A stretch of 64,000 nt of DNA from Rhodanobacter denitrificans (GTDB lineage: Bacteria > Pseudomonadota > Gammaproteobacteria > Xanthomonadales > Rhodanobacteraceae), in assembly GCA_017848855.1 (NCBI GenBank), contig JAFIHF010000004.1:1-64000 (forward strand), read 5' to 3'. The notes below the pieces were generated by a model. The model was not told where the DNA came from. It ran no database searches and was given only the letters and a program-made list of their open reading frames with translations. The stretch's first letter is position 1; every line of letters begins with the position of its first letter. Shown here in pieces: positions 3,846 to 63,014 of the stretch. Made by a program: the position numbers and the translations under genes.

Positions 3846-5576
3846 TTACCGCCAGCCGGAAGTGATGGGGTAGCGGCGTTCGCGACCGAAGGCGCGGGTG
3901 GTGACGCGCGGACCCGGCGCCGACTGGCGGCGCTTGAACTCGTTGGCCAGCACCAGGCGCACCACGCGGTGCACCACGTCGGCGGCGAAACCGGCCTCGA
4001 CGATCTCGGCCTGCGCCTGCTCGCCCTCGATGAAGCGCGCGAGGATCGCGTCCAGCACCTCGTAGGGCGGCAGCGAGTCCTGGTCGGTCTGGTTGTCGCG
4101 CAGTTCGGCCGAGGGCGGGCGGTCGATGACTTCTGGTGGAATGACGGGACTCGGGACTCGGGACTCGGCAGAGCGGATCGAGGCGAGCCCGGGCTTTGCG
4201 CCGTTGCTTTCCCCGAGTCCCGAGTCCCGAGTCCCGAGTCCCGGCAGTCGAGTCCCGGGTTCCGAGCCCCGGCCGTTGCGCCAGCGCGCCAACCGATACA
4301 CCACCGTCTTGTACACGTCCTTCAGCGGCGCGTAGGCGCCGCACATGTCGCCGTACAGCGTGCAGTAGCCCACCGCCATCTCGCTCTTGTTGCCGGTGGC
4401 GAGCAGCAGGCGACCGTGCTTGTTGGACAGCGCCATCAGCATCGTGCCGCGGGTGCGCGATTGCAGGTTTTCCTCGGTGGTGTCGGCGCCCTTGCCGGCG
4501 AAGGCGGGCGTGAGCGCGGCGATGAAGGAATCCACCGTGGGCTCCACGTCGATCACGTGGTAGTCCACGCCCAGCCGCTCGGCCTGCGCGCGGGCGCCGT
4601 CCAGCGACAGTTGCGAGGTGTAGCGGGTGGGCATCATCACCGCGGTGACGCGCCCGGCGCCCAGCGCGTCCACCGCCAGCGCCAGGGTCAGCGCGGAGTC
4701 GATGCCGCCGGACAGGCCCAGCAGCACGCCGGGGAAACCGTTCTTGTCGATGTAGTCGCGGATGCCGCGCACCAGCGCGGCGTACAGCACGGCCTCGGCC
4801 GAGTCGTCGCCCGGCGCCGGCCAGCCTTCGGCATGCAGCGTGCGCGTGGCCGGGTCGAACTCGGCCCACAGCAGCGCGTCGACGAAGGCCGGCGCGCGCG
4901 CCGCGACCGAACCGTCGCCGTTCACCAGCAGCGTGCCGCCGTCGTAGACCACTTCGTCCTGGCCGCCAACCAGGTTGAGGTAGACGAAGGCGCAGCCGGT
5001 TTCCTGCGCGCGCGCCGCCAGCACCGCCTCGCGTTCGGCCTGCTTGGCGTCGTCCCAGGGCGAGGCGTTGATCGCCACGATCAGCTCGGCGCCGGCACGC
5101 GCCGCGGCGGCAGCCGGCTCGGGCCGCCACACGTCCTCGCAGATCAGCAGGCCGATGCGCACGCCGGCCAGCGTGGTCAACGCGCTGGCGTGGCCGGGGC
5201 GGAAATAGCGCTTGTCGTCGAACACGCCGTAGTTCGGCAGCGCCTGCTTGTGCGCGATCTGCGCGATGCGCCCGTCGCGCAGCAGCGCGGCGGCGTTGAA
5301 CACCTCGCCCTCGCTGTGCGGGAAGCCGACCAGCGCGGCCAGTCCGTCCGTGCCGGCGGCCAGCGCCTCCAGCTCCTGCTGGCAGGCGGCGAGGAAGCTG
5401 GGGCGCAGCAACAGGTCTTCCGGCGGGTAGCCGGACAGGGTCAGCTCGGGGAACACCACCAGCTCGGCGCCGCCGCTGCGGGCCTGCGCCATCAGGTCGC
5501 CCACCTTCGCGGCATTCGCCGCGACCGCGCCGACCGGGAAATCGTGCTGGGCCAGCGCCAGACGCAGTCTTGCCAT
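3846..5576 (-). CDS. nadE: Glutamine-dependent NAD synthetase with an in-frame repeat insertion
   Basis: A 576-residue enzyme that amidates nicotinic acid adenine dinucleotide to NAD using glutamine. The N-terminal nitrilase-type glutaminase domain has the triad Glu44 (FPELTLSGYPPEDLL), Lys110 (HKQALPNYG) and Cys146 (ICEDVW). The synthetase domain has the ATP pyrophosphatase loop SGGIDS (289-294) and the usual TGNKSEMAVGY and RPPSAELR motifs. Between RWRN (about 434) and VIPPEV (478) are roughly 43 extra residues rich in G, S, R, P and E, encoded by a palindromic GGGACTC heptamer array at 4146-4274. Flanking motifs stay in frame, so the gene is probably functional with an extended surface loop. 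Without the insert the length is about 533, close to the family norm. Confidence 0.95.
   Translation of the reverse strand: MARLRLALAQHDFPVGAVAANAAKVGDLMAQARSGGAELVVFPELTLSGYPPEDLLLRPSFLAACQQELEALAAGTDGLAALVGFPHSEGEVFNAAALLRDGRIAQIAHKQALPNYGVFDDKRYFRPGHASALTTLAGVRIGLLICEDVWRPEPAAAAARAGAELIVAINASPWDDAKQAEREAVLAARAQETGCAFVYLNLVGGQDEVVYDGGTLLVNGDGSVAARAPAFVDALLWAEFDPATRTLHAEGWPAPGDDSAEAVLYAALVRGIRDYIDKNGFPGVLLGLSGGIDSALTLALAVDALGAGRVTAVMMPTRYTSQLSLDGARAQAERLGVDYHVIDVEPTVDSFIAALTPAFAGKGADTTEENLQSRTRGTMLMALSNKHGRLLLATGNKSEMAVGYCTLYGDMCGAYAPLKDVYKTVVYRLARWRNGRGSEPGTRLPGLGTRDSGLGESNGAKPGLASIRSAESRVPSPVIPPEVIDRPPSAELRDNQTDQDSLPPYEVLDAILARFIEGEQAQAEIVEAGFAADVVHRVVRLVLANEFKRRQSAPGPRVTTRAFGRERRYPITSGWR
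4146..4274. repeat. Palindromic GGGACTC heptamer element inside nadE
   Basis: Three direct GGGACTC units (4146-4166) face four GAGTCCC units (4215-4242) and one more (4250-4256), giving a long stem with a loop of about 48 bases. The whole insert is close to 129 bases, a multiple of three, and has no stop in the nadE frame. Another GGGACTC array occurs outside genes at 62970-62997, which marks this as a dispersed repeat and not native coding sequence. Confidence 0.85.
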
Positions 5577-62535: not shown

Positions 62536-62964
62536 ATGCGTCAGGTCAGGCATCTGCTGGAAGGCAAGAGCGGCACGATCCAGACCATCGCGCCCGACGC
62601 ACCGGTGCTCGATGCGATCAAGCGGATGGCCGAATACCGCATCGGCGCCCTGCTGGTGATGCGCGGCGAACAGCTGGTGGGCGTGGTGTCCGAACGCGAC
62701 TACGCGCGCAAGGTGATCCTGCAGGGCCGCTCCTCGGCACAGACCGCGGTGGCCGAGATCATGCGCGCCGACCCGCTCACCGTGGGGCCGGAAACCGACG
62801 TGCTCGACTGCATGCGCCTGTGCACCGACAGCCGCGTGCGCCACCTGCCGGTGCTGCAGGGCGGCAAGGTGATCGGCATCATCTCGATCGGCGACCTGGT
62901 GAAGGCGGTGATCGACGCGCAGGCCGAGCAGATCGAGCATCTGGAGCGCTATATCACGGGGTGA
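62536..62964 (+). CDS. Tandem CBS-domain protein
   Basis: A 142-residue protein with two CBS motifs (LVMRGEQLVGVVSERDYARK and VLQGGKVIGIISIGDLVKAV) forming one Bateman module, the usual binding site for adenosine nucleotides. No effector domain. The ribosome site GGGAGG is 7 bases from the ATG. Regulatory target unknown. Confidence 0.92.
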   Translation: MRQVRHLLEGKSGTIQTIAPDAPVLDAIKRMAEYRIGALLVMRGEQLVGVVSERDYARKVILQGRSSAQTAVAEIMRADPLTVGPETDVLDCMRLCTDSRVRHLPVLQGGKVIGIISIGDLVKAVIDAQAEQIEHLERYITG

Positions 62965-62969
62965 AGCGC

Positions 62970-62997
62970 GGGACTCGGGACTCGGGACTCGGGACTC
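62970..62997. repeat. GGGACTC heptamer tandem array
   Basis: Four exact direct copies of GGGACTC followed by GGG, six bases after the CBS gene stop. Same unit as the element inside nadE (4146-4274), but here without an inverted partner array. Confidence 0.9.
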
Positions 62998-63014
62998 GGG
63001 AAGAGCGTAAAAGC

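Follow-up and report, generated by a model that had tools for sequence, protein, structure and literature searches.

The nadE gene in the stretch of Rhodanobacter denitrificans DNA analysed here (64,000 nucleotides, the whole of which is called the window) carries a palindromic array of the heptamer GGGACTC inside its reading frame. It is very probable that this insert is one copy of a gene-less palindromic element which has become numerous in this lineage. Rickettsia is the best-known case of palindromic DNA remodelling housekeeping proteins in frame, and to it would be added the Rhodanobacteraceae, a family with many cultured environmental species. In dozens of species a single linker can be compared in its empty state and with different elements in it, which amounts to a natural experiment. 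The movement of such repeats in the absence of a recognised transposase, and the use of common landing sites inside genes by unlike palindromes, thereby become testable questions. The loops of NadE, UvrD and PolA, moreover, appear to accept tens of extra residues.

The nadE insert and its host protein

As contig C73, the window belongs to a draft genome of 3.49 Mb in 73 contigs that is 92.7% complete, and the nearest named NadE genes are those of Rhodanobacter, Dyella, Frateuria and Fulvimonas. The sequence-only reading of this DNA had described three GGGACTC units facing four GAGTCCC units and one more, placed in frame within NAD synthetase, and the description holds (Table 1). The exact outer unit is the GAGTCCC at 4250-4256, the reading frame stays open across the insert for all 576 codons, and the Pfam NAD_synthase match (residues 265-551), which is preceded by CN_hydrolase, spans it. 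An inner box is present on both arms. The addition had been put at about 43 codons, which is correct for the inserted length of 44 codons but not for the net gain: the distance from WRN to VI is 48 residues in the window NadE versus 12 in the nearest relatives, a net +36, and the insert occupies the place of about 8 native codons. The coding-strand RNA of the insert folds at -88.8 kcal/mol (z -5.7), and none of 200 shuffles was as stable.

Table 1. Positions of the nadE gene, the parts of its insert and the single-arm copy in the window
Feature	Coordinates	Strand	Remarks
nadE, glutamine-dependent NAD+ synthetase, 576 aa	3846..5576	-	NCBIfam NF010588, residues 2-576, 744 bits
In-frame 44-codon insert lying between WRN and IPPE	4143..4274	-	native linker of the two nearest relatives is shorter
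Arm A, three GGGACTC units	4146..4166	+	
Inner box GGCAGAGCG after arm A	4167..4175	+	same or similar boxes behind arms elsewhere in the genome
Loop of 48 nt, boxes included	4167..4214	.	related to the uvrD and polA loops of the same genome
Inner box GGGGAAAGC of arm B	4206..4214	-	read on the - strand
Arm B, four GGGACTC units on the nadE coding strand	4215..4242	-	
Outer partial array, one exact and two degenerate units	4250..4270	-	behind a 7-nt spacer
Single-arm copy, four units, between converging coding-like ORFs	62970..62997	+	
Inner box GGGAAGAGC of the single-arm copy	62998..63006	+	

nadE is an essential gene, and among the matches listed there was no second strong NadE match in this genome. 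Codons at which the window gene differs from both nearest relatives include 47 synonymous and 21 nonsynonymous changes, those from before and after the insertion being pooled, and on this count NadE appears to be under constraint. We infer that the insert-bearing protein is made and works, and the codon constraint is in support of this. Alignment with the best solved relative, 5kha, breaks at query residue 438 and restarts at 475, and in an AlphaFold2 model residues 438-480 form a coil flanked by helices, the block means being 30-54. The model is moderate overall (mean pLDDT 72), its best PDB matches being glutamine-dependent NAD synthetases superposed with a large rmsd of about 16 A. Low confidence does not single out the insert in this model, in which the conserved segments 395-419, 487-500 and 546-576 are under 50 as well. 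The insert would be compatible with a disordered loop, of which the model is no proof.

It could be argued that the array is an artefact of assembly or annotation, given a draft of 73 contigs of which one, C34, terminates inside a GGGACTC array (L141, 4577-4590), so that these repeats evidently can break assembly. Separately assembled species, however, carry arrays at the same sites, nadE included, which makes misassembly of the nadE array unlikely, and both frame and codon constraint are kept. We regard an artefact of either kind as barely conceivable.

The element and its in-frame copies in this genome

Membership of the nadE array in a dispersed family is apparent from the dimer GGGACTCGGGACTC, which occurs at 312 places genome-wide (169 + 143) against 0 for the reversed-sequence control. 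What stands out is the tandem arrangement; of the heptamer as such the window has no more than a mild excess, with 14 occurrences for 7.95 expected and a count of 14 reached by 4 of 100 shuffles. Together with the window, 34 further stretches around listed dimer places contain 269 of the 312 dimers, in 55 tract clusters comprising 90 tracts. Tract length ranges from 2 to 12 units, and 59 of the 90 tracts have four units when up to two mismatches are allowed in the flanking units.

A typical arm is mostly (GGGACTC)4 followed by a short box resembling GGGAAAGC, with two arms facing each other across a loop, and single-arm copies occur beside the facing pairs. The box GG[GCT]{0,2}[AG]{1,4}GC lies directly behind 58 of the 90 tracts, the background for it being 2.0% of sampled positions, or 21% of positions starting with GG, and the arms of the element are polar. 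In the stretches examined there are 26 neighbouring facing arm pairs, with loops of 34-100 nt, and the paired clusters span 90-198 bp with outer arrays included. The outer arrays of the uvrD and polA copies sit behind a 9-nt spacer, versus 7 nt in the nadE copy. In 26 of the 55 clusters, as a raw count, an edge follows the stop of a coding-like ORF by 30 nt or less. The single-arm copy at 62970, where the sequence-only reading had placed the same heptamer outside genes, belongs to this kind, since its four units start 5 bases after a TGA (62962-62964) ending an ORF with coding-type codon-position GC; compared with the stretches of relative G011 that were examined, it gave only a 94-base match, from which no target duplication was readable. 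At another place (L123, 2976-5689) four copies of the element, all with a loop of 75 nt, lie in a stretch of 2.7 kb, and two of them have a common left flank, as if duplicated together.

The loops provide a further means of recognising the family. The nadE loop scores 21.0 against the loop of uvrD copy 1, with 10.5 as the best of 200 shuffles compared with all loops, and on these scores the nadE, uvrD and polA loops of this genome are related. Local replication slippage of a heptamer-like native sequence, with no mobile element involved, would be favoured by the native GATTCCC found in an empty nadE gene (L020) and by the range of tract lengths, which indicates that arrays grow or shrink in place. 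Slippage nevertheless yields no inverted partner, no inner boxes and no loop that nadE has in common with uvrD and polA, and as an explanation of the nadE insert it is most improbable.

Codon-position GC on both sides of each cluster was used as the test for in-frame position. It flagged 11 of the 55 clusters as lying inside one coding frame; the other 44 did not pass. Nine of the flagged clusters lie in eight housekeeping genes with family matches, with hairpin copies in nadE, uvrD (two) and polA and single arms in valS, purL, metH, purM and argE, and the remaining two in one 461-aa ORF without a family match. The idea of a palindromic element tolerated in frame, as in Rickettsia, is thus supported, and it is strengthened by what the proposed search for GGGACTC arrays inside ORFs has brought up in uvrD, polA and the other genes. 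uvrD and polA have one match each at E 1e-60 in this genome, and the polA hairpin copy sits between the 5'-3' and 3'-5' exonuclease domains. Against solved structures the repeat peptides GTRDSGFGTRE of ValS and ESRVPSPES of PurL are extra residues, and GTRDSGRGTRD of MetH mostly replaces a stretch of similar length. The assignment of purM and argE is based on position in the ORF and on a family match that exceeds the model by 7-9 residues. The metH ORF (L150, 1112-4090) matches positions 339-1233 only of the 1234 positions of its model, and the homocysteine-binding half of MetH may be a separate gene.

The GGGACTC array is stop-free in all six frames; of the paired clusters, 26 in number, 7 have six open frames and 9 have five. 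Being stop-free permits insertion but does not indicate selection, because the same is true of 73% of heptamers when these are weighted for 66% GC, and of 90% when they begin with GGG. Within their genes the four hairpin copies have the same orientation and reading frame, although 4 to 6 frames are open. A rival explanation is that the element has been retained in coding genes for a function, either as a hairpin or G-quadruplex tuning expression or replication or as a useful protein loop. Besides the common frame, the very stable hairpin and the preference for four units, which fits the quadruplex idea put forward in Rehm 2015 (PMC4692102), speak for this explanation. The host genes are functionally unrelated, however, relatives lack the element or have other occupants in its place, Rehm et al. 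could not assign a regulatory role to the Xanthomonas repeats, and the four copies may have their frame in common by descent. A retained function seems to us improbable.

The nadE, uvrD and polA linkers in related genomes

Comparison of NadE from related genera, which had been recommended as a check, drew on 110 loci, of which 106 could be parsed; after 18 duplicates were dropped, 88 distinct genes were left. Four unparsed loci (L026, L033, L037, L086) are without an array and stand outside the 88. In 19 of the 88 genes, among them L040 and L044 of the cultured strains Rhodanobacter sp. PCA2 and DHB23, the interval from WRN to VI contains an array or a decayed form of one, and five different heptamers are involved: GGGACTC in 1, GGGATTC or GGGATTG in 7, GGGAATC in 4, GGGGAAC in 4 and GGGGACC in 1, with 2 decayed, the GGGGACC and decayed classes being assigned by eye. 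The two closest relatives of the window genome, G007 and G011, have an empty site of 12 residues, where a long unrelated loop would have counted against the first interpretation, and they have no GGGACTC dimers, so that the window insertion is probably recent. In a nadE tree built outside the insert the window is sister to these two (100/94), and the G007 gene is identical to nadE of Rhodanobacter sp. C06 (L039). By eye the empty linker resembles that of Dyella, and the empty state is for this reason probably ancestral.

Genome-wide dimer counts, which cover four heptamers in 28 of 61 genomes, associate the nadE fillings with the repeats of their own genomes. GGGACTC dimers number 312 in the window genome, 47 in G031, 34 in G015, 11 in G008 (one array) and 2 in G021, and there are 0 in the other 23 of the 28 genomes searched. 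Seven of the 28 genomes carry a nadE insert. Its heptamer is present as genome-wide dimers in all seven, and in six it is the most frequent of the four counted; the exception is G005, with GGGAATC in nadE and 14 dimers of it versus 51 of GGGATTC. Array-rich genomes with an empty nadE site are found as well, namely G016 (500 GGGGAAC dimers) and G031 (123 GGGAATC in addition to its GGGACTC). A scan for four G-triplets at heptamer spacing in eight same-genus genomes other than the window's own gave 0 to 20 matches, many of the GGGAGAGGGG type.

The linkers of uvrD and polA, whose classes were read by eye from the linker sequences, are also occupied in various ways. At the first uvrD site 12 of 16 genomes have a 4-residue link and 4 have an array, which is GGGACTC in the window genome, GGGATTC in G014 and GGGAATC-like in G005 and G023. 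At the second, a CCCTCTCCC/GGGAGAGGG palindrome is present in frame in several relatives (for example G007, G011, G006 and G010), G023 has a GGGATTC array and G016 a GGGGAAC array, and the site is short in G008, G003, G002 and G032. In polA, the linkers of the window genome and of G031 contain a GGGACTC element, G007 and G032 have a third palindrome there, GGAGCGCACCC...GGGTGCGCTCC, and other genomes have the CCCTCTCCC type. The second uvrD site and polA thus differ from nadE in that relatives do carry long loops of other palindromes there. The in-frame CCCTCTCCC/GGGAGAGGG and GGAGCGCACCC/GGGTGCGCTCC types are to be seen at loci L158 and L161-L166 (uvrD) and L178-L187 (polA) of relatives. The distance between the polA and uvrD frames is 11 kb in the window genome (G000, C51, 71333-82344) versus about 0.6 kb in G011 (C1, 1619673-1620269).

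Whether the nadE inserts arrived separately or were inherited can be approached through their loops. When trimmed, the window nadE loop reaches a score of 13.0 with the uvrD copy of its own genome, and its best score with a nadE loop of another species is 5.5; shuffles gave a mean of 1.8 and a maximum of 10.0. The nearest match of the G014 nadE insert, besides itself, is another G014 element (89%), followed by further elements of G001 and G014 (84-85%) and by the nadE inserts of G023 (82%) and G001 (76-77%). The likeness of loops within a genome, in the window and in G014, favours separate landings. An alternative that we consider possible though rather doubtful is one old ancestral insertion, often lost and passed between species by recombination of the nadE linker, with heptamers rewritten genome by genome through gene conversion. 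One insert length, 35 residues, does recur in 10 of the 106 parsed loci (duplicates included), and several nadE loops look alike by eye. The residue before VI (window 4131-4142) is E in 16 of 19 insert-bearing NadE sequences versus 4 of 69 without an insert, for which Fisher's test gives p 3e-11 with relatedness ignored and independent pairs give about 5:0 with 3 ties (median p 0.06); L026, outside this count, has the E without an insert. Against the old insertion, the window loop is not above shuffles in comparison with other nadE loops yet resembles the copies of its own genome, as does that of G014. The pattern of presence and absence requires 11 changes on the best nadE tree, 8 of them forced by well-supported branches. 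Right borders vary between heptamer types (by eye), and the Dyella-like linker points to an ancestral state that was empty.

Separate insertion alone, on the other hand, does not predict the E before VI. At the nadE, uvrD and polA sites compared linker bases differ or are replaced too, none being a clean insertion, and no clean target-site duplication was found between filled and shorter sites of these genes. Replacement of the linker means that recombination could have brought the segment in, and from the E and the changed bases it appears that local recombination may have carried some inserts between species. We lean slightly towards the view that in this family the flexible linkers of nadE, uvrD and polA are exchangeable docking sites, which every lineage fills in frame by whichever stop-free palindrome is expanding in the genome. 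At least three unrelated-looking palindrome families would take part. The heptamer would be homogenised within a genome, the repeats evolving in concert and at the same time remodelling essential proteins.

Possible movement and known repeat systems

The proposed explanation would start from a typical element with (GGGACTC)4 arms, GGGAAAGC-like boxes and a loop, or from a single arm. Because a heptamer array without a stop in six frames would, at a suitable landing, add a loop instead of destroying the gene, a stop-free copy of suitable length could be accommodated in a flexible linker. In nadE the element would have replaced part of the linker between WRN and IPP and would be read as protein, and in relatives the nadE, uvrD and polA linkers would have been filled repeatedly, apparently by the palindrome family common in the respective genome. 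Copying might proceed via a single-stranded-DNA hairpin, by template switching in replication, by gene conversion or by an enzyme acting in trans. Of these, template switching on single-stranded DNA is the route we prefer, in view of the very stable hairpin of the coding strand.

A search for Y1 transposases (PF01797, E 0.001) found no enzyme that could account for movement, and there was no match in G005, G021 and G032, all of which bear arrays. A RAYT origin was rejected, as Y1 transposases do not track the arrays. The G031 genome has 18 Y1 transposase matches, and the frame length is 152 aa in 16 of these. Like the REP/RAYT system as outlined in PMC3733652, the present element consists of many short hairpins, here often close behind genes; it differs in its tandem-heptamer arms and in having no link with Y1 transposase genes.

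The element seems to work in the manner of the Rickettsia palindromic elements (RPE), to which it is likened by description; membership is not claimed. According to the covered parts of PMC3767692 and PMC10969869, RPE are dispersed palindromes of about 100-150 bp, some of them in frame in unrelated genes at solvent-exposed places; different families are found near the same site, and hotspots are discussed for RPE-4, -6 and -7. The dispersed palindrome described here is of similar size and, as read from the sequence, likewise has in-frame copies in unrelated genes. It is unlike RPE in its arms of tandem heptamers, in its host family, in a unit that varies by lineage and in the existence of single-arm copies. 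The view that an element tolerated as protein is rare outside Rickettsia needs correcting, since in-frame palindromes or MITEs are in print for Wolbachia, for enterobacterial repeat units (PMC2759123) and for Coxiella (PMC5896051). The latter two, enterobacterial repeat units and Coxiella QMITEs, are described in the parts covered as small transposase-less palindromes that can add peptides to proteins; unlike them, the present element has heptamer arrays as arms, and no target duplication is readable here.

In its DNA the element resembles the G-rich heptamer repeats of Xanthomonas and Nostoc. The covered parts of Rehm 2015 (PMC4692102) report 186 and 183 GGGAATC repeats per Xanthomonas genome with a preference for four units, 70 and 75 convergent two-repeat cases per genome, a location close behind ORFs, and 89% and 93% of repeats in intergenic positions. 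The preference for four units, the convergent pairs and the location close behind ORFs are shared with the element described here. The unit is different: the rule for that search, as given there, was GGGAATC at least once, and there are 0 GGGAATC dimers in the window genome, although other Rhodanobacteraceae genomes have them. Those parts of the paper describe no in-frame insertion in essential genes, inner box or loop family. Among the titles and abstract openings returned by searches of the open-access literature there was nothing on in-frame heptamer elements in Rhodanobacteraceae. The kind of element is already known; not met within the literature so covered were the host group, a coding-gene heptamer specific to the lineage, and the repeated use of a site by unlike palindromes.

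Two further observations concern similar sequences elsewhere. An array pair of this type, with 76% identity over about 100 bp, is present at two places on a Gemmatirosa plasmid (NZ_CP007130.1, 252740-252843). Near the start of the window, at about 60-130, a CCCTCTCCC-type palindrome seems to underlie the ORF translations HPRPLSRRERGED (+) and SPLSLRERGRG (-).
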